Positions 7,346-59,981 of a stretch of DNA of 64,000 nucleotides are shown in pieces (position 1 is the stretch's first letter; each line of letters opens with the position of its first letter). The position numbers and the translations under genes are program-made. The DNA comes from Bordetella sp. FB-8 (lineage in GTDB: Bacteria; Pseudomonadota; Gammaproteobacteria; Burkholderiales; Burkholderiaceae_B), in the NCBI RefSeq assembly GCF_000382185.1, contig NZ_KB907784.1:248001-312000 (forward strand). Reading direction: 5' to 3'. The notes beneath the pieces are model-generated. The model saw only the letters and a program-made list of their open reading frames with translations. It was not told the origin of the DNA and searched no databases.

Positions 7346-7436
<91 letters not shown>

Positions 7437-44840: not shown

Positions 44841-46190
44841 TCATGACTTTTTCTTGTACTGGCGGTCCAGATCTTTCAAAAATTCGAGCTTCTGCTGGAT
44901 TTTAGCCTCCAGGCCGCGGTCGGTCGGGCGATAGAAGGTCGTCTCCAGGCCCTCGGGAAAGTAGTGTTCTCCGGCGGCATAGCCGTGCGGTTCGTCGTGG
45001 GCGTAGCGATAGGCGTGGCCGTAACCGAGCTCTTTCATGAGCTTGGTGGGCGCATTGCGCAGGTGCAGCGGCACGGGCGCGCTGCCGTGCTCGGCGGCAA
45101 ATTTCTTGGCGGCGTTGTAGGCGTTGTAGCCCGCGTTGGATTTGGCGGCGCAGGCCAGGTAGATAACGGCCTGGCCCAGGGCGAGTTCTCCTTCGGGAGA
45201 ACCCAGGCGTTCATAGGTGGCCGCGGCGTCGTTGACGACCTGCATGGCGCGCGGATCGGCCAGGCCTATGTCTTCCCAGGCCATGCGGACGATGCGGCGG
45301 GCAAGGTAGCGCGCGTCGGCGCCCCCGTCGATCATGCGGCAGAACCAGTACAGGGCGGCGTCCGGATCGGAGCCGCGCACGGATTTATGCAGCGCGCTGA
45401 TCTGGTCGTAGAAGGCCTCGCCGCCCTTGTCGAAGCGGCGCAGGTTTTGCGACAGCGCGTTTTCCAGCCAGGCGGCATCGACGACTTCTCGGCCGGCGGT
45501 CAACGCCGATTCGGCCACCACCTCGACGGCGCTGATCAGGCGGCGCGCATCGCCGTCGGCCCAGGCGGCCAGTTGCTCGCGCGCATCGTCCGTGAACTGC
45601 ACCTGCGGCGGCTGGCCCGGCCCGCCGCGGCCTTCGTTCATGGCGGCCGCCGCGCGGGCTAAGAGCTGTGTGAGTTCTTCGGCCGAGAGCGCGTGCAGGA
45701 CGTAGACGCGAGCGCGCGAGAGCAATGCGGAGTTGACCTCGAACGAAGGGTTCTCGGTGGTGGCGCCGATGAAAGTGAAGAGACCGCTTTCGACATAGGG
45801 CAGGAAGGCGTCCTGCTGGGCCTTGTTGAAACGGTGCACCTCGTCGACGAAAAGAATGGTGCGGCGGCCCTGCCCTTGGGCGATCTGCGCCGTCGTGACC
45901 GCGTCGCGTATGTCCTTGACCCCACCGAGCACGGCCGAGATGGCGATGAATTGCGCATCGAAACCATCGGCCATGAGCCGCGCCAGCGTGGTCTTGCCCA
46001 CGCCCGGCGGCCCCCAGAAAATCATGGAGTGCGGCCGACCCGAGGCGAAGGCCACGCGCAGGGGCTTGTCCGGTCCGAGCAGGTGCGACTGCCCCACCAC
46101 GTCGGCCAGGGTGTGCGGACGCAGCCGCTCGGCCAGGGGCACGTAGGGGCGGTGCGCAGGGTCGTCGGCGAAGAGATCGGGACTGCTCAT
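44841..46190 (-). CDS. rarA: Replication-associated recombination protein A
   Basis: A 449-residue AAA+ clamp-loader-like ATPase acting at stalled replication forks (also called MgsA). Walker A GPPGVGKT (60-67), Walker B region [17 protein letters not shown], sensor [22 protein letters not shown], and the C-terminal tetramerisation domain with EHYFPEGL. In E. coli and many others it sits as ftsK-lolA-rarA-serS; here serS is downstream as expected, but lolA is 9.8 kb away with an opposite-strand block between. Confidence 0.96.
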
Positions 46191-46290
46191 GGATGGATTA
46201 GAGCATGGCGCCGCCGGCCCATTCCCCCCATCGCACGATGCCCAGAATGATGGGTTCCTAGGGAAAATACCAGTTCGTTTTGTAAATTTA

Positions 46291-46300
46291 TTTCATGAAA
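46291..46300. promoter_or_regulatory. AT-rich promoter palindrome ahead of the D-amino-acid operon
   Basis: TTTCATGAAA is a perfect 10-bp palindrome about 40 bp before the deaminase ATG, in a 70-bp AT-rich island; a further TTTCA occurs at 46331. A likely place for the promoter and for the operon's RpiR regulator, whose site is not known. Confidence 0.35.
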
Positions 46301-46337
46301 ATATAAAAAAACAGTTTTTCTTGTAAAAAATTTCAAA

Positions 46338-47624
46338 ATGACTCTGGCTAACTCCCTCATTTCCTCCCCTCAGCTCGACCCGGCCGGCAAGGGCCTGGGC
46401 ATGTTTCCCGCCGGGTTGGCCAGCGCCGACGCAGCCGGCCTGGGCTGGAACCTGCTGGCCCAAGACGTGAGCCTGCCCGTGGCGGTGCTCTATGAAAGCC
46501 GGGTGCGGCACAACCTGCAATGGATGCGACAGTTCCTGACCGCCTATCGCGTCAAGCTGGCGCCCCACGGCAAGACCACCATGAGTCCGCGGCTCTTTCA
46601 CATGCAGCTGGAACACGGCGCCTGGGGCATCACCCTGGCCACGGCGCCGCAGACCAAGGCGGCGTACCTGCACGGGGTGCGGCGCGTGCTCATGGCCAAC
46701 CAACTGGTGGGCAAGGCCAATATGGCCATCGTCGCCCAATTGCTGCGCGACCCGGATTTCAGCTTCTGCTGCCTGGTGGACTCCGTGGCCAGCGCACGTC
46801 AGCTGGGCGCGTTCTTCGCCGCGCAGGGCCTGGTGCTGCCGGTGCTGATCGAACTGGGCCCGCAGGGCGGACGCACCGGCGTGCGCGACGATGCAGCCCT
46901 GCTGGCGGTGCTGGACGAACTGGCAAACTGGCCGCAATCGCTGGCCCTGGCCGGCGTGGAAATCTACGAAGGCGTGCTCAAGGAAGAGGACGAGATCCGC
47001 GCCTTCCTGCGCCGCGCCGTCGCCACGCTACGCGAATTGGCCGGCGCCGCCCGCCTGCGCTCGGATGCGCCGGCCATTCTGACCGGCGCGGGCTCGGCCT
47101 GGTTCGACGTGGTGGCCGAGGAATTCGCCGGCGTGGACATCGGACAGCCGCTGGACGTGGTGCTGCGTCCTGGCTGCTATCTTTCGCATGACGTGGGCGC
47201 CTATCGCAGCGCGGCCGAGCGCATCGCCCGGAACAATCCGGTAGCGCGCGAGATGGCCTCATCGCTGCAGCCTGCCCTGCAGGTATGGGCTTATGTGCAA
47301 TCGATTCCCGAACCCGGCCGCGCCATCATCGCCCTGGGCAAGCGCGACGCCGCCTTCGACGCCGGCATGCCGGTGCCCGACATGCGATACCGCCCCGGCG
47401 GCGAAGCCTGCGGCAAGCCCGGCAAGGCAGCCCCGCATTGGCAGATCACGGCCATGATGGACCAGCATGCCTTTATGCAGATCGCCCCGGGCGACGACAT
47501 CGAGGTGGGCGACATGCTGTCCTTCGACGTCTGCCATCCCTGCCTGACCTTCGACAAATGGCGTCAGGTGCTACTGATCGACGACCGCTACGACGTAACC
47601 GGCGTGGCCGAGACTTACTTCTAG
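46338..47624 (+). CDS. D-amino acid deaminase (D-serine dehydratase-like, fold III PLP)
   Basis: A 428-residue alanine-racemase-type PLP enzyme of the eukaryotic-like D-serine dehydratase/amino acid deaminase group. The PLP lysine is Lys79 in KLAPHGKTT; residues at GPQGGRTGVR and the C-terminal zinc-site pair His400/Cys402 in DVCHPCLTF are kept. Removes ammonia from D-serine or similar amino acids via an enamine/imine to a 2-oxo acid. D-threonine aldolases are close relatives but lack the neighbours found here. First gene of the opposite-strand block between rarA and lolA. No ribosome site precedes ATG 46338, so initiation may be leaderless or from another start (next Met 22). Confidence 0.83.
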   Translation: MTLANSLISSPQLDPAGKGLGMFPAGLASADAAGLGWNLLAQDVSLPVAVLYESRVRHNLQWMRQFLTAYRVKLAPHGKTTMSPRLFHMQLEHGAWGITLATAPQTKAAYLHGVRRVLMANQLVGKANMAIVAQLLRDPDFSFCCLVDSVASARQLGAFFAAQGLVLPVLIELGPQGGRTGVRDDAALLAVLDELANWPQSLALAGVEIYEGVLKEEDEIRAFLRRAVATLRELAGAARLRSDAPAILTGAGSAWFDVVAEEFAGVDIGQPLDVVLRPGCYLSHDVGAYRSAAERIARNNPVAREMASSLQPALQVWAYVQSIPEPGRAIIALGKRDAAFDAGMPVPDMRYRPGGEACGKPGKAAPHWQITAMMDQHAFMQIAPGDDIEVGDMLSFDVCHPCLTFDKWRQVLLIDDRYDVTGVAETYF

Positions 47625-47692
47625 ACCCTGCTTTACCTTCCGCCTTGCGCCCCGGCACCGGGACGCTTGCACTCTCTTCTGGAGCTTGACTC

Positions 47693-49243
47693 ATGAACTT
47701 CTCGATGACGCGCCGCCGCAGCCTGATCGCCATGGCCATGGGCGGCACTCTGGGTGCAGTCGGCCTGCCGGAGACCGTTTTCGGCGCCGCGCCGGTCAAG
47801 GGCGGCATCATTTCGGTAGCCACCATCGGCGAGCCACCCACGCTGGACCCGATGATGAGCACGGCCGACTTGGTGGGCATCCTGACTCAGCACATCTTCG
47901 AAACGCTCTATACCTTCGACGCCAAGTGGAACGTCACGCCGCTGCTGGCCGAGTCGCTGCCGCAGTTCAGCGCGGACGGCAAGACCTGCGACATCGCGCT
48001 GCGCAAGGGCGTCACTTTCCATGACGGCTCGGCCATGAGTTCGGCCGACGTCGTGGCCTCGCTCACGCGCTGGACCCGCGTGGCTTCGCGCGGCAAGCAG
48101 GCGGCCGAAGTCATCACCGGCATCCAGGCCACGGGCCCCGACGGCATCCGACTCACGCTGAGCAAGCCCTACGCGCCGCTGACCGCGCTGCTGTCCATGA
48201 ACAACAGCGCCGCCGTGATCATGCCGGCCGGCAAGCTCGCGGCCACGCTGACCGATTACATCGGCACGGGTCCCTACCAGCTCAAAGCCCGCGTGCCCGA
48301 CCAGTACATCCAGCTCGTGCGTTTTGCAGCCTACAAATCACGCGCGGGCGAGCCCGACGGCTATGGCGGCGCGCGCAAGCAATACCTGGACGAAATCCGC
48401 TTCGTGCCGATGAGCAATGCCAATACCCGTCTGGAAAGCGCCATTGCCGGCCAGCACGACTACGTCGACTCGCTGCCGGTGGAGTCCCTGGCGCAGCTCA
48501 AGGCAGGCAAGTCTCTGCCGGTGATACTCAAGCCCTTCGGCTGGCCGCGTCTGGTGATGAACACCAAGAAGGGCCTCATGGCCGACCAGAAGGTGCGCCA
48601 GGCCGCGCAACTTTCGCTGAGCGAAGAGGACATGCTGTACGCCGCCTTCGGCGACAAGAACTTCTACGCCCTGGACGCCGATCTCTACCCCAAGGGCTTT
48701 CCCTGGAGCACCGACCTGGGCGGCGCGGTCTACAACAAGGGCGACGCACCCGGCGCCAAGAAGCTGCTGGATGCGGCCAACCCCAAGGACCGAACCATAC
48801 GCCTGCTCACCAGCCAGCAGTACGAGTTCCACTACAAGATGGCGCTGGTGGCCAACGAGTACTTCAAGGCCGCCGGCTTCAAGGTGGACATGCAGGTGGT
48901 GGATTGGGCCACGCTGGTGCAGCGCCGCGCCAATCCCGATCTGTGGGACATCTTCATCACCCACAGCCCCTTCCTGCCCGAACCCGCGCTAATCGACTTC
49001 CCCTCCAAGGACTCGCCGGGCTGGTGGGACACGCCGCGCCGCGACAAGGCGCTGGACGCCTTCAACGAGGCACGCACGCAGGACGAGCGTCTGACGCTGT
49101 GGGCCGAGGTGCAGAAGGCCGTGTTCGAGGAAGTGCCCTTCATCAAGGTGGGCGACTTCAACGCGCTGTCGGCCCAGTCGCCCAAGCTGCATGGGCTGAC
49201 GCCCGCGCCGTGGCCGTACTTCTGGAACACCTGGAAGGCCTGA
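47693..49243 (+). CDS. Peptide/nickel-type ABC transporter substrate-binding protein
   Basis: A 516-residue family 5 extracellular binding protein, about 55 kDa. The signal MTRRRSLIAMAMGGTLGAVG ending VFGA has a twin-Arg start, so Tat export is possible. Ligand-domain hallmarks are GGIISVATIGEPPTLDPMM, HIFETLYTFDAKWNVTPLLA and DVVASLTRW. Binds oligopeptides or similar N-acylated compounds in the periplasm for the two permeases next to it. Its position between the deaminase and D-aminoacylase genes points to D-peptides or N-acyl-D-amino acids; this ligand is inferred. Confidence 0.92.
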   Translation: MNFSMTRRRSLIAMAMGGTLGAVGLPETVFGAAPVKGGIISVATIGEPPTLDPMMSTADLVGILTQHIFETLYTFDAKWNVTPLLAESLPQFSADGKTCDIALRKGVTFHDGSAMSSADVVASLTRWTRVASRGKQAAEVITGIQATGPDGIRLTLSKPYAPLTALLSMNNSAAVIMPAGKLAATLTDYIGTGPYQLKARVPDQYIQLVRFAAYKSRAGEPDGYGGARKQYLDEIRFVPMSNANTRLESAIAGQHDYVDSLPVESLAQLKAGKSLPVILKPFGWPRLVMNTKKGLMADQKVRQAAQLSLSEEDMLYAAFGDKNFYALDADLYPKGFPWSTDLGGAVYNKGDAPGAKKLLDAANPKDRTIRLLTSQQYEFHYKMALVANEYFKAAGFKVDMQVVDWATLVQRRANPDLWDIFITHSPFLPEPALIDFPSKDSPGWWDTPRRDKALDAFNEARTQDERLTLWAEVQKAVFEEVPFIKVGDFNALSAQSPKLHGLTPAPWPYFWNTWKA

Positions 49244-49247
49244 CGCC

Positions 49248-50189
49248 GTGCTGCGTTATATCTTGAATCGCCTGGTCGGCCTGGTCGTGGTGATGTTCAT
49301 CGTGGCGACCATCGTCTTCGTCATCCTGCGCATTACGCCCGGCGATCCCGCGGCGGTGATGCTGGGTCCCCAGGCCACCCAGCAGGATATTGCCGCGCTG
49401 CGCGACCAGCTCGGCCTGAACCAGTCAGTACTGACGCAGTACGTCACCTGGCTGGGCCACCTCGCGCGAGGCGACCTGGGGCAGTCCATCTTCCTGAACA
49501 AGCCTGTGCTAACGGTACTGGCCGAACGCGCCGAGCCCACCTTCTGGCTGACGCTGATGTCGCTGGTGATCGCCACCGCCATTGCACTGCCGGTGGGCAT
49601 ATTTTCGGCGGTCAGGCGCGGCACGGTGCTGGACCAATCGGTGCAGGCATTCTCGATGTTCACCTCGAGCGTGCCGAGCTTCTGGCTGGGCCTGCTGCTG
49701 ATGGAGTTCTTCTCGGTCAAGCTGGGCTGGCTGCCGGTGGCAGGCTACGGCGGACCCGGCGCCAGCATTGGCAACAGGCTGTCGCACCTGATCCTGCCGG
49801 CCGTGGTGCTGGGCCTGGTGAACTCGGCGCTGATCACGCGCTTCATCCGCGCCAGCATGCTCGATGTGCTGCGCGACGATTATGTGCGCACCGCGCGCGC
49901 CAAAGGCCTGAGCGAAAGCCGGGTGATCCTGCGGCATGCGGTGCGCAATGCCCTCATTCCCATCCTTACGGTATTGGGCCTGACGGCAGCCCTGCTGGTC
50001 AGCGGCGCGGTGGTCACCGAAACCGTGTTCGGCCTGCCCGGCGTGGGCAGCCTGGTGGTGTCGGCGGTGCTGCGGCGCGACTACCCGGTGATCCAGGGTG
50101 CGCTGCTCGTGATCGCCGCCATCTACGTGCTGATCAATCTGCTCATCGACCTGCTCTACCTGCTGGTCGACCCTCGCGTGCGGTACTGA
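49248..50189 (+). CDS. ABC transporter permease, DppB type
   Basis: A 313-residue inner-membrane permease with six helices (MLRYILNRLVGLVVVMFIVA; VASLGHLARGDLG-like DLGQSIF), the EAA-loop VLRDDYVRTARAKGLSESRVI and C-terminal LIDLLYLLVDPRVRY, typical of DppB. The start is GTG 49248, 4 bp after the binding-protein stop; TGACGCC leaves little room for a ribosome site, so coupled translation is likely. Pairs with the DppC-type protein 1 bp downstream. Confidence 0.93.
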   Translation: MLRYILNRLVGLVVVMFIVATIVFVILRITPGDPAAVMLGPQATQQDIAALRDQLGLNQSVLTQYVTWLGHLARGDLGQSIFLNKPVLTVLAERAEPTFWLTLMSLVIATAIALPVGIFSAVRRGTVLDQSVQAFSMFTSSVPSFWLGLLLMEFFSVKLGWLPVAGYGGPGASIGNRLSHLILPAVVLGLVNSALITRFIRASMLDVLRDDYVRTARAKGLSESRVILRHAVRNALIPILTVLGLTAALLVSGAVVTETVFGLPGVGSLVVSAVLRRDYPVIQGALLVIAAIYVLINLLIDLLYLLVDPRVRY

Positions 50190-50190
50190 A

Positions 50191-51063
50191 ATGGCCATTT
50201 CGACAACTGCTTACGCCGACGGCTCCGACCGCTGGCAGGTGCTGCGCCTGCTGGTGGCGCGCAAGACCGTGCTGATCAGCCTGATCGTGCTGATCATGCT
50301 GGTCGGTGCCGCCGTGTTCGCCCCCTGGATCACGCCCTTCGACCCCTACAAGCTGTCGATCATGAACCGGCTCAAGGCGCCCAGCAGCCTGCATTGGTTC
50401 GGCACAGACGACTTCGGCCGCGATGTGTTCAGCCGGGTGATTTACGGCGGCCGCCTGTCGCTGACGGTGGGCTTCATGGTGGTGCTGCTCTCGAGCGTGC
50501 TGGGTATCGCGCTGGGCCTGACCGCGGGCTTTTTCCGCGGCGCCGACAAAATCGTTTCGCGCCTGATCGACGCCATGATGGCCTTTCCCGATATCCTGCT
50601 GGCGATCTCGCTGGTAGCGGCCCTGGGCCCGTCGCTGAGCAATGTGATCATCGCGCTGGGCATCGTCTACGCGCCGCGGCTGGCGCGCGTCGTGCGCGCT
50701 TCGACCCTGGTGATACGCGAGCTGCCCTTCGTCGAAGCGGCGCGGGCGCTGGGTGTGCCGACCCGGCGCATCGTCACGGTGCACGTACTGCGCAACCTGA
50801 TGTCGCCCCTGCTGGTGCAAGGCACCTTCACCTTCGCCTACGCCATCCTGGCCGAAGCCGGGTTGTCCTTCCTGGGCGTGGGCGTATCGCCCGACATTCC
50901 CACCTGGGGCACCATGATCAACGGCGGCCAGCAGTACATGGGCACCGCCGACTGGATCATGGTGTTCCCCGGCGTCGCCATCGTATTGGCGGTGATGTCG
51001 CTGCAGTTGGTGGGCGACGGCCTGCGCGATGTGCTCGATCCCCGCCTGCGCAAGGAGCTGTAA
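50191..51063 (+). CDS. ABC transporter permease, DppC type
   Basis: A 290-residue permease: N-terminal helix ISLIVLIMLVGAAVFAPWI, HWFGTDDFGRDVFSRVIYGGR (the DppC signature), EAA-loop PFVEAARALGVPTRRIV, and terminal LQLVGDGLRDVLDPRLRKEL. Forms the membrane pore with the DppB partner; starts 1 bp after its stop. The ATPase genes follow. Confidence 0.94.
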   Translation: MAISTTAYADGSDRWQVLRLLVARKTVLISLIVLIMLVGAAVFAPWITPFDPYKLSIMNRLKAPSSLHWFGTDDFGRDVFSRVIYGGRLSLTVGFMVVLLSSVLGIALGLTAGFFRGADKIVSRLIDAMMAFPDILLAISLVAALGPSLSNVIIALGIVYAPRLARVVRASTLVIRELPFVEAARALGVPTRRIVTVHVLRNLMSPLLVQGTFTFAYAILAEAGLSFLGVGVSPDIPTWGTMINGGQQYMGTADWIMVFPGVAIVLAVMSLQLVGDGLRDVLDPRLRKEL

Positions 51064-51066
51064 ATC

Positions 51067-53069
<2,003 letters not shown>

Positions 53070-53136
53070 GCGCGCCGAGCCGCAACAAACGTTTATCCCC
53101 CTCGAAGGGACGGCGCGCAGCGTCACGGAGGCACCG

Positions 53137-54030
53137 GTGAACCGCTCCACCGATTGCGCGCTGCCCACGCCTGGCGACATCGTCTACCAGATCCGCAGTC
53201 AGCGCGACACGCTCAGCGCCACCGAGCGCAAGGTAGCCGATGCCATCCTGGACGACATCGCCAGCGCCGCAGGCGCCACGGTCGACCAACTGGCGCGCAA
53301 GGCAGGTGTGAGCATCGCCGCGATCTCGCGCTTCGCGCGTGCCGTGGGCTGCGATGACACCCGCGATCTCAAATTCAAGCTCGCCCGGGCCAGCGCGGTG
53401 GGCGAGCGCTTCCTGGCCGGCGACGTACCGGAAGAAAGCACTTTCTATGCGCGCTTGTATGGCGACATCGAAACCACGCTGCGTGCCCACCTGCCATTGT
53501 TTTCCGAGGCGATATTCGAACAGGCCGCCGGCATCGTGCGCGATGCCCGGATGGTCTATATCTTCGGCATGGGCGGCGCCTCGGCAGCGCTGTCCCAGGA
53601 AATGCAGTCGCGCCTGGTGCGCCTGGGCTACGGCGTGGCGGCCTATAGCGACGCCGTGCTGCTGCGCATGGTCGCGGCGACCCTGGACGCGCGCGACGCC
53701 GTGGTGATTCTCTCGGCCTCGGGTCTGACGCCGGAGATCCTGGACGCCGCCCGCATCGTGCAGCAATATGGCGCCCGCATCGTGGCCCTGACCGATCCGG
53801 CGGCGCCGCTGGCCAAGCTGGCCGACGTGTCCATTCCCATCCATACGGCCGAGACCGATTTCATCTATAAACCCTCGGCGTCGCGCTACGCCATGCTGCT
53901 GGCCATCGACATCCTGGCCACCGAGCTGGCGCTGATCCATCAAGACGACACCAAAGAGAAGCTGCGCCGCATCAAGCTGGCGCTGGACGAATACCGCGGC
54001 GGCCCCAATCGGCTGCCGTTGGGAGATTGA
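53137..54030 (+). CDS. RpiR-family transcriptional regulator
   Basis: A 297-residue regulator with an N-terminal helix-turn-helix (DTLSATERKVADAILDDIAS, LARKAGVSIAAISRFARAVG) and a SIS sugar-isomerase-like domain (VYIFGMGGASAALSQEMQSRL; AVVILSASGLTPEILDAARIV). RpiR proteins usually sense phosphosugars or cell-wall amino sugars. The GTG 53137 is chosen because GGAGG lies 6 bp ahead; in-frame Met upstream lie in the DppF gene. It sits inside the operon, 5 bp before the D-aminoacylase gene, so it is probably its regulator. Confidence 0.88.
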   Translation: MNRSTDCALPTPGDIVYQIRSQRDTLSATERKVADAILDDIASAAGATVDQLARKAGVSIAAISRFARAVGCDDTRDLKFKLARASAVGERFLAGDVPEESTFYARLYGDIETTLRAHLPLFSEAIFEQAAGIVRDARMVYIFGMGGASAALSQEMQSRLVRLGYGVAAYSDAVLLRMVAATLDARDAVVILSASGLTPEILDAARIVQQYGARIVALTDPAAPLAKLADVSIPIHTAETDFIYKPSASRYAMLLAIDILATELALIHQDDTKEKLRRIKLALDEYRGGPNRLPLGD

Positions 54031-54035
54031 CCCCG

Positions 54036-55502
54036 ATGTACGACACCCTGATACACGGCGCGCTGGTCTACGACGGCACCGGCACACCGCCCCGTACAAC
54101 CGATGTGGCCCTGGCCGACGGCTGCATCGCCGCCATCGGCCAGCTGGCCGGCGCCCCGGCGCGCGCGACCATGGCAGGGTCGGGTCTGGCCCTGGCGCCC
54201 GGCTTCATCGATGCTCACACCCACGACGACACCCATGTCATCCGCACGCCCGCCATGCTGCCCAAGCTGTCGCAGGGCGTGACCACGGTGGTGGTGGGCA
54301 ACTGCGGCATCAGCGCGGCGCCCGTGATCCTGCGCGGCGAGCCGCCCGATCCCATGAATCTGCTGGGCGATCGCCGTGATTTCACCTACCCAAGCTTCGC
54401 GGACTACACGCGCGCCGTCGACGCCGCGCAACCCAGCGTCAACGTGGCCGCGCTGGTGGGCCATACGGCCCTGCGCAACAACCATATGGACCGCCTGGAC
54501 CGGCCCGCGACCGAGGCCGAGATCGCCGCCATGCGCGCGCAATTGCGCCAGGCGCTCGAGCATGGCGCCATCGGCCTGAGCACCGGCCTGGCCTATGCAT
54601 CGGCCTTCGAATCGGACGCCGCCGAAGTGCAGGCCCTGGCCGAAGAGCTCGATGCCCACGGCGCGCTCTACACCACGCACCTGCGCACCGAGTTCGACGC
54701 CATCCTCCAGGCCATGCAGGAGGCCTACGACGTGGGCGCCCATGCGCGCGTGCCCGTGATCATCTCGCACCTCAAATGCGCTGGCGCCGGCAACTGGGGC
54801 CGCAGTCGCGAGGTGCTTGCCAGCCTGGACGCCGCCGGGCGTTATCTGCCCGTGGGCTGCGACTGCTACCCCTACGCGGCCAGTTCATCGACGCTGGATC
54901 TGAAACAGGTGACGAGCGATTTCGACATCGACATCACCTGGTCCACCCCGCATCCGGAAATGGCCGGCCGCAAGCTGGCCGAGATCGCGGCCGGCTGGAG
55001 CCAACCCCTGCTGGAGGCCGCGCGCCGCCTGCAGCCGGCCGGTGCGGTCTACCACGGCATGGCCGAGACGGACGTGCAGCGCATCCTGGCGCACGAGCGC
55101 ACGATGATAGGCTCCGACGGTCTGCCCAACGACCCGCTGCCGCATCCGCGGCTCTGGGGCGCCTTCCCGCGCGTGCTGGGCCACTACAGCCGCGACCTCA
55201 AGCTGTTCGCGCTGGAGACGGCCGTGCACAAGATGACGGGCCTGACGGCCGCGCGCTTCGGCCTGAACGACCGTGGACTGGTCAGGGAAGGTTTCCAGGC
55301 GGATCTGGTGCTTTTCGATCCGGCCACCGTCATCGACCGCGCTACGTTCTCCCAACCGGAACAGCCGGCTACGGGCATCGAGGGCGTATGGGTCAATGGC
55401 GTGCTGTCCTACCATGCGGGCCAGGCCACCGGGCAGCGCGCCGGCCGCTGGCTGCCACGCGGCAAGAACCTGCATGCCTCGTTCAATACCTACCGGGCCT
55501 GA
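54036..55502 (+). CDS. D-aminoacylase (N-acyl-D-amino acid deacylase)
   Basis: A 488-residue metal-dependent amidohydrolase. N-terminal beta-barrel (MYDTLIHGALVYDGTGTPPR), metal-site HTHDD (His61, His63), Cys90 in VVVGNCGISAAP, HLRTEFDA and ISHLKCAG metal histidines, SDGLPND acid, and C-terminal barrel strands. D-aminoacylases of Alcaligenes/Achromobacter have this length and Cys. It cleaves N-acyl-D-amino acids to free D-amino acids. ATG 54036 after GGGAG is used. Directly before ridA and after the regulator. Confidence 0.92.
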   Translation: MYDTLIHGALVYDGTGTPPRTTDVALADGCIAAIGQLAGAPARATMAGSGLALAPGFIDAHTHDDTHVIRTPAMLPKLSQGVTTVVVGNCGISAAPVILRGEPPDPMNLLGDRRDFTYPSFADYTRAVDAAQPSVNVAALVGHTALRNNHMDRLDRPATEAEIAAMRAQLRQALEHGAIGLSTGLAYASAFESDAAEVQALAEELDAHGALYTTHLRTEFDAILQAMQEAYDVGAHARVPVIISHLKCAGAGNWGRSREVLASLDAAGRYLPVGCDCYPYAASSSTLDLKQVTSDFDIDITWSTPHPEMAGRKLAEIAAGWSQPLLEAARRLQPAGAVYHGMAETDVQRILAHERTMIGSDGLPNDPLPHPRLWGAFPRVLGHYSRDLKLFALETAVHKMTGLTAARFGLNDRGLVREGFQADLVLFDPATVIDRATFSQPEQPATGIEGVWVNGVLSYHAGQATGQRAGRWLPRGKNLHASFNTYRA

Positions 55503-55534
55503 GCATCGGGCCCGTCCACCTTGAGGAAAACAAC

Positions 55535-55948
55535 ATGAGCAACACTCCCGGCGCCGACGCCCACGGCATCATCCGCTACGGCGCATGCGGCGGCGTGGGC
55601 CAAGGCGGCGCCCACATGCCTTTCTCGCGCGCAGTGCAGGCCGACGGCTGGCTCTACGTATCGGGCCAGGTGCCGATGGAGAACGGCGTCGTGGTCGAAG
55701 GCAATGTGATTACGCAGTCGCATGCGGCCATCCGCAACCTGCTGGCCGTCCTGGCGGAAGCCGGCTACGGCGCAGAGCATGTGATCCGCTGCGGCGTATG
55801 GCTCGAGGATCCGCGCGATTTCGCCGCGTTCAACAAGGTGTTCGTGGAATACTTCGGCGCCCACCCTCCGGCGCGCGCCTGCGTGGAATCGCGGCTGATG
55901 ATCGACGCGAAGGTCGAGATCGAGTGCGTGGCCTACAAGAAGCCCTGA
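55535..55948 (+). CDS. ridA: RidA-family imine deaminase
   Basis: A 137-residue RidA (YjgF/YER057c) protein. Landmarks are VSGQVPMENG, GVWLEDPRDFAAFNKVFVEYFG, and PPARACVESRLMIDAKVEIE, where the Arg is the catalytic residue of imine-hydrolysing members. RidA hydrolyses 2-aminoacrylate and related imines, which PLP serine/threonine dehydratases release. GAGGAAAACAAC precedes the ATG. Last gene of the block; lolA follows convergently. Confidence 0.9.
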   Translation: MSNTPGADAHGIIRYGACGGVGQGGAHMPFSRAVQADGWLYVSGQVPMENGVVVEGNVITQSHAAIRNLLAVLAEAGYGAEHVIRCGVWLEDPRDFAAFNKVFVEYFGAHPPARACVESRLMIDAKVEIECVAYKKP

Positions 55949-55967: not shown

Positions 55968-56596
55968 CTACATCCGCACCACGTCGGTCCCCTTGGGGGC
56001 CGTGAACTGGAATTGCCCCGCGGGCACGGCCGCATTAGCCTGCATGTCGGAAAGATCCACGCGCGTGGTCTGCCCGAAGGCATCGAGCAGCATGATGCGC
56101 ACCGGCAGATTGTCGTGCATGCCGATGTCCACCTGCGCGAAGCCCGCGTCGGCGGCGTTGTGCGGCTTGGCGCGCAGCCATTGCAGGCCATCCTTGTCGG
56201 GCAGCGAGGTCACCGTGAACGCCTGTTCAAGATCGCCCGAGCCAAAGAGAATGGCGGCCGGCGAAGCGCCGATGGCCTTGCCGACCTCGCGCACAGTCAC
56301 CTGGGCCAGGTCGGGGTCGTACTGGTAGACCTGCTTGCCGTCGGACACGATGAGCTGCGCGTAGGGCTTGCGCACTTCCCAGCGGAACTTGCCCGGCCGC
56401 TGGAAAGCGAAGATGCCCTGCTGCGCAGGCGCCGCCTTGCCTGCCTGCGGGCCGGTCGTGGCCTGGCTGAACGAGCCTGTGGCCGATTGCACCGTGGCCA
56501 CGAAGGCCTTGAGCTGCTCCTGCGCCGTCGCGCCCCAGGCCAGCGCGGGACCGCAAGCCAGCAAGAAAAAAAACAACGCCCGCACTAATGATCGCA

Positions 56597-56597
<1 letters not shown>
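55968..56597 (-). CDS. lolA: Outer-membrane lipoprotein carrier protein LolA
   Basis: A 209-residue periplasmic carrier moving lipoproteins from the inner to outer membrane. Signal peptide [20 protein letters not shown]; mature part [53 protein letters not shown], and a C-terminal barrel edge [14 protein letters not shown]. The ATG 56597 follows GGAGG by 7 bp and overlaps the ftsK stop (TGATG). In most gammaproteobacteria and relatives rarA comes next; here the D-amino-acid block intervenes. Confidence 0.93.

Positions 56598-59981
<3,384 letters not shown>

Follow-up and report, generated by a model that had tools for sequence, protein, structure and literature searches.

What a nine-gene block of Bordetella sp. 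FB-8 degrades, and how it came to lie between rarA and lolA, are the questions raised by positions 46338–55948 of the 64,000-nt stretch analysed here (contig NZ_KB907784.1; the whole stretch is called the window, and all positions are window coordinates). The block is filled by nine plus-strand open reading frames (ORFs; ORF list and Pfam) in the order pyridoxal phosphate (PLP) deaminase, binding protein, two permeases, two ATPases, RpiR regulator, amidohydrolase and RidA. A sequence-only reading had named these nine genes and their families, which ORFs and Pfam confirm, and had seen in them a single logic of import, deacylation and deamination, which the gene families support. We consider it probable (about 0.8) that these genes form an operon of the ong type, used to degrade 2-acetamido-2-deoxy-D-gluconate (GlcNAc1A, N-acetyl-glucosaminic acid), a product of oxidative chitin cleavage (PMC12017989, PMC9537276), with a Dpp-type ATP-binding cassette (ABC) importer, a catabolic path and RpiR control, and that the block descends from one ancestral insertion between lolA and rarA.

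The deacetylase cavity and the substrate

The block amidohydrolase scored 646 bits against PDB entry 9g5m, for which a literature search found no publication, 574 bits against PpOngB (9kb1) and 474 bits against the Alcaligenes faecalis D-aminoacylase (1m7j). PpOngB deacetylates GlcNAc1A and is separated from D-aminoacylases chiefly by Ser292 and Gln298 (PMC12017989). In the alignment, the window protein agrees with PpOngB at all 15 listed cavity positions, S292 and Q298 among them, and the two are 56.7% identical over aligned columns, although they occupy separate branches of the tree. Several of the 15 positions are common to D-aminoacylases, whereas A193, A256, S290, S292, Q298 and G348 differ from 1m7j; this enzyme (50.5% identity) shares the fold family and catalytic residues of the window protein but has F, M, G, T and M in place of A, A, S, S and G at PpOngB positions 193, 256, 290, 292 and 348, its loop near position 298 aligning ambiguously. 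Thr292 is conserved in both D-aminoacylase groups, AfDam and BbDam, and the Gln298 site is Leu in the former and Arg in the latter (PMC12017989); the window protein has Ser and Gln, respectively. Both residues are kept in 71 of 72 fetched deacetylase copies (a set that includes the window's own genome and some genomes fetched twice), the exception being a cassette in a metagenome-assembled genome (MAG; L047, below). Judged by these residues, the cavity of the block deacetylase is of the OngB (GlcNAc1A) kind and unlike that of D-aminoacylases.

The surrounding genes have a published counterpart. The ongCRBD genes of Pseudoalteromonas prydzensis ACAM 620 encode a deaminase, an RpiR repressor, a deacetylase and a RidA protein (PMC9537276), and the window block shares this order, the OngB-type deacetylase and an inner-membrane importer. 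Because the cavity residues are those of OngB and the operon core equals ongCRBD, the substrate was reassigned to GlcNAc1A, against the N-acyl-D-amino acid proposed from sequence alone. The published cluster had itself carried the same D-amino-acid-type annotation before its testing, and Achromobacter piechaudii ATCC 43553 has already been named as holding the complete pathway (PMC9537276, Fig. 6a legend). The two clusters differ in that five ABC genes lie between ongC and ongR in the window, whereas P. prydzensis has the SSS symporter OngIT (a sodium symporter); in that the latter cluster alone includes kdgK, a GH20 gene and a TonB receptor gene; and in that only the window block is fixed between lolA and rarA. 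The ong pathway and its presence in A. piechaudii are known (PMC9537276), and the ABC importer variant at the lolA–rarA seat is new. Among the matches listed in a literature search that joined ong or GlcNAc1A with Bordetella, Achromobacter and ABC transporter, no paper other than the two on ong describes this block, as judged by titles and abstract openings.

The enzymology proposed here is by analogy with the Pseudoalteromonas enzymes, which deacetylate GlcNAc1A to glucosaminate and deaminate the latter to 2-keto-3-deoxygluconate (KDG) (PMC9537276). GlcNAc1A would be captured by the solute-binding protein (SBP) and imported by the ABC transporter; the OngB-like enzyme would remove acetate to give glucosaminate, which the OngC-like enzyme would convert to KDG and NH3, with RidA assisting by imine clearing or in another step. 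A putative KDG kinase and a 2-keto-3-deoxy-6-phosphogluconate (KDPG) aldolase, whose genes lie outside the block, would then yield pyruvate and glyceraldehyde-3-phosphate. In the window's own genome, eda lies beside edd, both over their model cut-offs, and a KDG-kinase-like gene is also present. Among the 13 genomes of the genus that are ≥90% complete, kdgK and eda are both present in five of five with the full block; of the eight without it, three have both and five have neither. This correlation is suggestive (chance 56/1287 = 0.04, computed by hand and ignoring kinship). MAG G203 (labels with G, L and g denote our genomes, loci and genera) has eda, and KDG kinase was not found there at the E-value used.

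Several points weigh against this assignment. The kinase in the window's own genome has KDG kinase as its best model, at 186 bits and below the cut-off of 400, and three genomes (G068, G176 and G197) carry kdgK and eda without the block. In contrast to the published ong system, no lytic polysaccharide monooxygenase (LPMO; PF03067) was found in any of the 15 genomes of the genus, two of which are only 73% and 77% complete; the substrate would therefore have to come from other organisms. Within the 9.6-kb block, to which the Pfam search was confined, there is no GH20 OngA or TonB receptor, and the block likewise lacks kdgK and an SSS symporter. The assignment of the deaminase to the OngC type, made through family and neighbours, is provisional. 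Relatives of the ABC importer adjoin ureide genes and an M81 peptidase gene in annotated plasmid neighbourhoods of rhizobia, so the importer is not diagnostic of the substrate. The activity of the block enzymes on GlcNAc1A and glucosaminate is a prediction from sequence, and it is possible that a D-amino acid fits the deaminase in particular.

This last point leads to the substrate first proposed: import of N-acyl-D-amino acids (N-acyl-D-Ser and N-acyl-D-Thr first), cleavage by a D-aminoacylase, a D-serine/threonine dehydratase step and clearing of aminoacrylate by RidA. The family names of the block genes agree with it, PpOngC also deaminates D-serine and D-threonine (PMC9537276), and in G036, where all that remains of the block is the deaminase and a decayed piece of the regulator, a D-amino acid role would fit that deaminase. 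The deacetylase, however, lacks the Thr292 conserved in both D-aminoacylase groups (PMC12017989); PpOngB, with the same cavity residues, has little or no activity on N-acetyl-D-Ser (PMC9537276); and several homologous clusters include genes of sugar-acid metabolism. The 15 of 15 cavity residues led us to drop a D-amino acid as main substrate, and we hold it to be improbable. The E. coli dsd and Dpp systems resemble the block in D-serine dehydratase chemistry and in Dpp-type importer architecture, but the window deaminase differs in having an Ala_racemase_N-type fold domain, and the binding protein scores only 32 bits against the DppA model (cut-off 1005).

The homologous clusters comprise 80 loci fetched by their deaminase. 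The complete ABC-type block is present in 35 of them, 20 have the four core genes but not these ABC genes, and the other 25 are incomplete or truncated. The C-R-B-D order of the published operon is kept on a single strand in 19 of the 20 ABC-free clusters, in favour of the ong assignment. A KDG-kinase-like match occurs in 15 of 45 loci (L098–L142), with PfkB confirmed for L109 and L101. A Pfam scan of the neighbours of four loci found a GH20 gene in L114 and L117 and a TonB receptor in L114, both known from the P. prydzensis cluster; among the ORFs scanned, L101, which has the PfkB kinase, and L116 have neither. In L105, a GntP permease occupies the importer slot. Separately, locus L180 (G015) has a 45% identical deaminase next to an ABC importer and what is probably an N-carbamoyl-D-amino acid hydrolase (both assigned by eye), and may be a true D-amino acid system.

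The same chemistry could also act on another 2-acylamido-2-deoxy-aldonate, or on a short oxidised chito-oligosaccharide that is imported and cut inside. Dpp-type importers often carry dimers, and here an ABC importer replaces a monomer symporter; moreover, a homologous importer, with an SBP 47–49% identical to that of the window, belongs to a parallel DgoK/DgoA-type cassette. Against this, Pfam finds no glycosidase gene in the block, and the window deacetylase retains each of the cavity residues holding the gluco chain, namely E226, S290, S292 and Q298. A different substrate of this kind therefore appears unlikely, and GlcNAc1A remains preferred. On that reading, family labels such as 'D-aminoacylase' and 'D-amino acid deaminase' mask what is in this case a route for a sugar acid.

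Genes and candidate operator of the block

The features of the locus are collected below. All four flanking genes, serS and rarA before the block and lolA and ftsK after it, lie on the minus strand; serS, rarA and ftsK were named from the order conserved in relatives and lolA by a profile hidden Markov model.

Table 1. Positions of the block genes, adjoining flanks and candidate operator sites in the window.
Feature	Position	Strand	Basis or remark
rarA, flank	44841..46190	-	homologues 81–99% identical, order kept within genus
operator candidate TGTAAATTTATTTCA	46281..46295	+	ends 42 bp before deaminase start codon
second operator-like site TGTAAAAAATTTCA	46322..46335	+	similar second sites before the gene in several relatives, by eye
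ongC-like PLP deaminase	46338..47624	+	PF14031 (D-ser_dehydrat), PF01168 (Ala_racemase_N)
solute-binding protein, family 5	47693..49243	+	PF00496 (SBP_bac_5)
ABC permease, DppB type	49248..50189	+	PF00528 (BPD_transp_1), PF19300
ABC permease, DppC type	50191..51063	+	PF00528 (BPD_transp_1), PF12911
ABC ATPase, DppD type	51067..52086	+	PF00005 (ABC_tran), PF08352 (oligo_HPY)
ABC ATPase, DppF type	52083..53069	+	PF00005 (ABC_tran), PF08352 (oligo_HPY)
ongR-like RpiR repressor	53131..54030	+	PF01418 (HTH_6), PF01380 (SIS)
ongB-like GlcNAc1A deacetylase (predicted)	54036..55502	+	Amidohydro_3; PDB matches; cavity residues
ongD-like RidA protein	55535..55948	+	PF01042 (Ribonuc_L-PSP), on 55550–55948; RidA family in PDB
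lolA, flank	55968..56600	-	NF000661, 267 bits over cut-off 255

The deaminase matches the D-serine deaminase of PDB entry 3gwq (E 1.8e-165), with PHGKT and HPC motifs common to both. The best PDB matches of the binding protein are 8vdx and then AgaA (6hlx). For the RpiR protein, the nearest NCBIfam model is HexR, at 157 bits and thus below the cut-off of 296; the start codon of its gene is uncertain, the frame being open already from 52948.

Within the 220 bp preceding the deaminase match, the looser form TGWAA-N3..7-TTWCA is found at every one of the 35 block loci in the test set and at 48 of 83 deaminase loci overall, where shuffling of the upstream DNA predicts 0.4 (mononucleotide shuffles; the sequences are related). 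A single copy of the exact TGTAAATTNNTTTCA, always at this place, is present in five of the 15 genomes in the genus, and the reversed control has none; since this pattern was read off these same sites, only its absence elsewhere is independent evidence. G203 carries a one-base variant. The RpiR protein may bind the candidate operator, and would repress from the TGTAAATT..TTTCA site until released by a pathway compound.

History of the lolA–rarA junction

lolA and rarA were searched over 200 genomes of the family; 124 genomes were common to the best-150 match lists, 122 of which have both genes on one contig, and the counts that follow cover the genomes among the matches listed. In other genera, the two genes lie on one strand with a gap of ≤250 bp in 88 of 88 genomes, so that a split is not usual in the family. 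By contrast, in genera g1, g4, g6 and g16 the gap exceeds 1.6 kb in 31 of 34; all ten sampled g4 genomes have a gap of 10.8–11.4 kb and a deaminase. Achromobacter and several Bordetella hold the block at this junction; in other lineages it is missing or situated at another place. Of the 35 complete blocks fetched, 30 have rarA at one end and lolA at the other, each no more than 2.5 kb away; four have rarA only (the fetched stretch ends first in two, and inserts precede lolA in at least one, G171) and one is located elsewhere.

Two comparisons bear on descent. In an FtsK+LolA tree (FastTree, with unequal lengths and some weak nodes), the occupied junctions all fall on one side, separated from the empty outgroups, and the distances of six block proteins follow those of SerS (Mantel r 0.88–0.95, 35 loci, 0 of 999 permutations). 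Together with the junction survey, they argue for one old insertion, vertical descent and repeated loss: the cassette would have entered lolA–rarA once in an Achromobacter/Bordetella ancestor and later been lost, moved or replaced in several lines. That the block splits lolA from rarA between minus-strand flanks, as first described, is borne out; its insertion as a unit is supported at the level of the clade and is not peculiar to this genome, since relatives share it. Presence in all Alcaligenaceae, which had been named as speaking against insertion, was half borne out: all ten sampled g4 genomes and several Bordetella hold the block, whereas all 88 listed genomes of other genera have a closed junction. 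If this account is correct, the Achromobacter/Bordetella lineage has long been able to use oxidised chitin sugar, a trait passed on largely vertically, lost in several lines and served by a binding-protein ABC importer; in this genus, where no LPMO was found, it would depend on scavenging.

The junction might instead be a tolerant spot for repeated unrelated operons, block occupancy then reflecting several independent gains. Other inserts do occur there (L170–L173 and the DgoK-type cassette of L047), and two g10 genomes hold the block elsewhere, with no rarA or lolA match within the 19.5 kb fetched and with lolA ~1.4 kb from a divergent rarA. This account fits poorly, however, with identical gene order and orientation in 34 junction copies, with the congruence with SerS and with the placement of occupied junctions on the tree; we regard it as unlikely, if slightly less so than either alternative substrate, and retain a single ancestral insertion. 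Two other histories were rejected. A recent, genome-specific insertion is disfavoured by the block at the same junction in relatives, by the tree and by closed junctions elsewhere. A mobile or integrative island was set aside, as the only tRNA found in the window (7346–7436) is not at the junction and GC content shows no clear difference between the block (0.672) and its flanks (0.643 and 0.668); the search did not extend to terminal repeats or to integrase genes outside the nine ORFs. A plasmid search returned 528 records with partial matches, none covering the block at 80%; around two of the ABC matches the annotated neighbours have other functions, and a third record, with a deacylase match, carries no annotation.

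Within the genus, six of 15 genomes have the full block (that of G203 over two contigs); of the remainder, G036 has the deaminase alone, three junctions are empty, four are rearranged without the deaminase, and G202 has another cassette. The G036 locus (L052) is a decayed block: its deaminase frame is open, and a weak RpiR fragment (37% over 75 aa, E 6e-7) lies between lolA and the deaminase. This genome gave no kdgK or eda matches.

Other variation at the junction was also seen. Genes for an acyl-CoA ligase, PrpD, TctC, LysR and an acyl-CoA dehydrogenase lie at the lolA side in L170 (Pfam), with homologues in L171 and L173; G123 and G171 carry inserts of the acyl-CoA ligase type that separate the block from lolA, G183 carries them without the block, and that of L173 stands alone, with no ong block. 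Other acyl-CoA genes occupy the junction in L172 (G047). The rarA beside the block or lolA is only 65–68% identical to that of the window in G077, G100 and G120 (g6), in L097 and L103, and in L241 and L242 (g10), against 81–83% in G005 and G047 of g6; the low-identity copies likely reflect replacement by a distant copy.

A parallel DgoK/DgoA cassette at the same seat

G202, an incomplete MAG that is sister to the window's own genome (G000) on the FtsK+LolA tree (support 0.955), carries a different cassette at lolA–rarA (L047, G202:C206, 8013–15029), with genes for a DgoA-like aldolase (NF006600, 278 bits over 207), DgoK (PF05035, 311 bits), RidA, a major facilitator superfamily (MFS) transporter, a deaminase that shares the family of the window enzyme, RpiR and a deacetylase. 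Both flanks and the cassette lie on a single 15.5-kb contig of even GC content (0.677, 0.665 and 0.693). A search of 268 genomes gave relatives of its deaminase at E ≤1e-90 in 17 of them, G202 counted, from 11 genera. Of 12 such regions fetched, seven have deaminase, RpiR, deacetylase and homologous ABC genes, and five the deaminase only; three of the seven ABC sets (four of eight when G202 is counted) include DgoK and DgoA, one of the seven, L214, ending shortly past the deacetylase. The second-type deacetylase cavity is uniform in eight of eight (F193, A256, G290, T292, L298 and Q348), unlike both OngB and AfDam, and would mark a third deacetylase group.

The substrates of DgoK and DgoA are 2-keto-3-deoxygalactonate and its phosphate. 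As 2-keto-3-deoxygalactonate is the product expected from galactosaminate, a galacto-epimer pathway is suggested, and we tentatively propose, at somewhat short of even odds, that an undescribed N-acetyl-D-galactosaminate cassette exists and that in G202 it took the place of the gluco-type ong cassette between lolA and rarA. No paper on bacterial galactosaminate catabolism was found among the matches listed (titles and abstract openings). If the proposal is correct, sister genomes exchanged epimer-specific pathways at one chromosomal slot, and the DgoK/DgoA exchange at the same site makes the new pathway directly testable. In other genera (L212, L213, L214, L215, L217, L219 and L221), the second-type cassette is seen with a Dpp-type ABC importer homologous to that of the window, and an inverted TGTAAW..WTTACA-type site adjoins the RidA gene in six of these seven loci, L221 being the exception.

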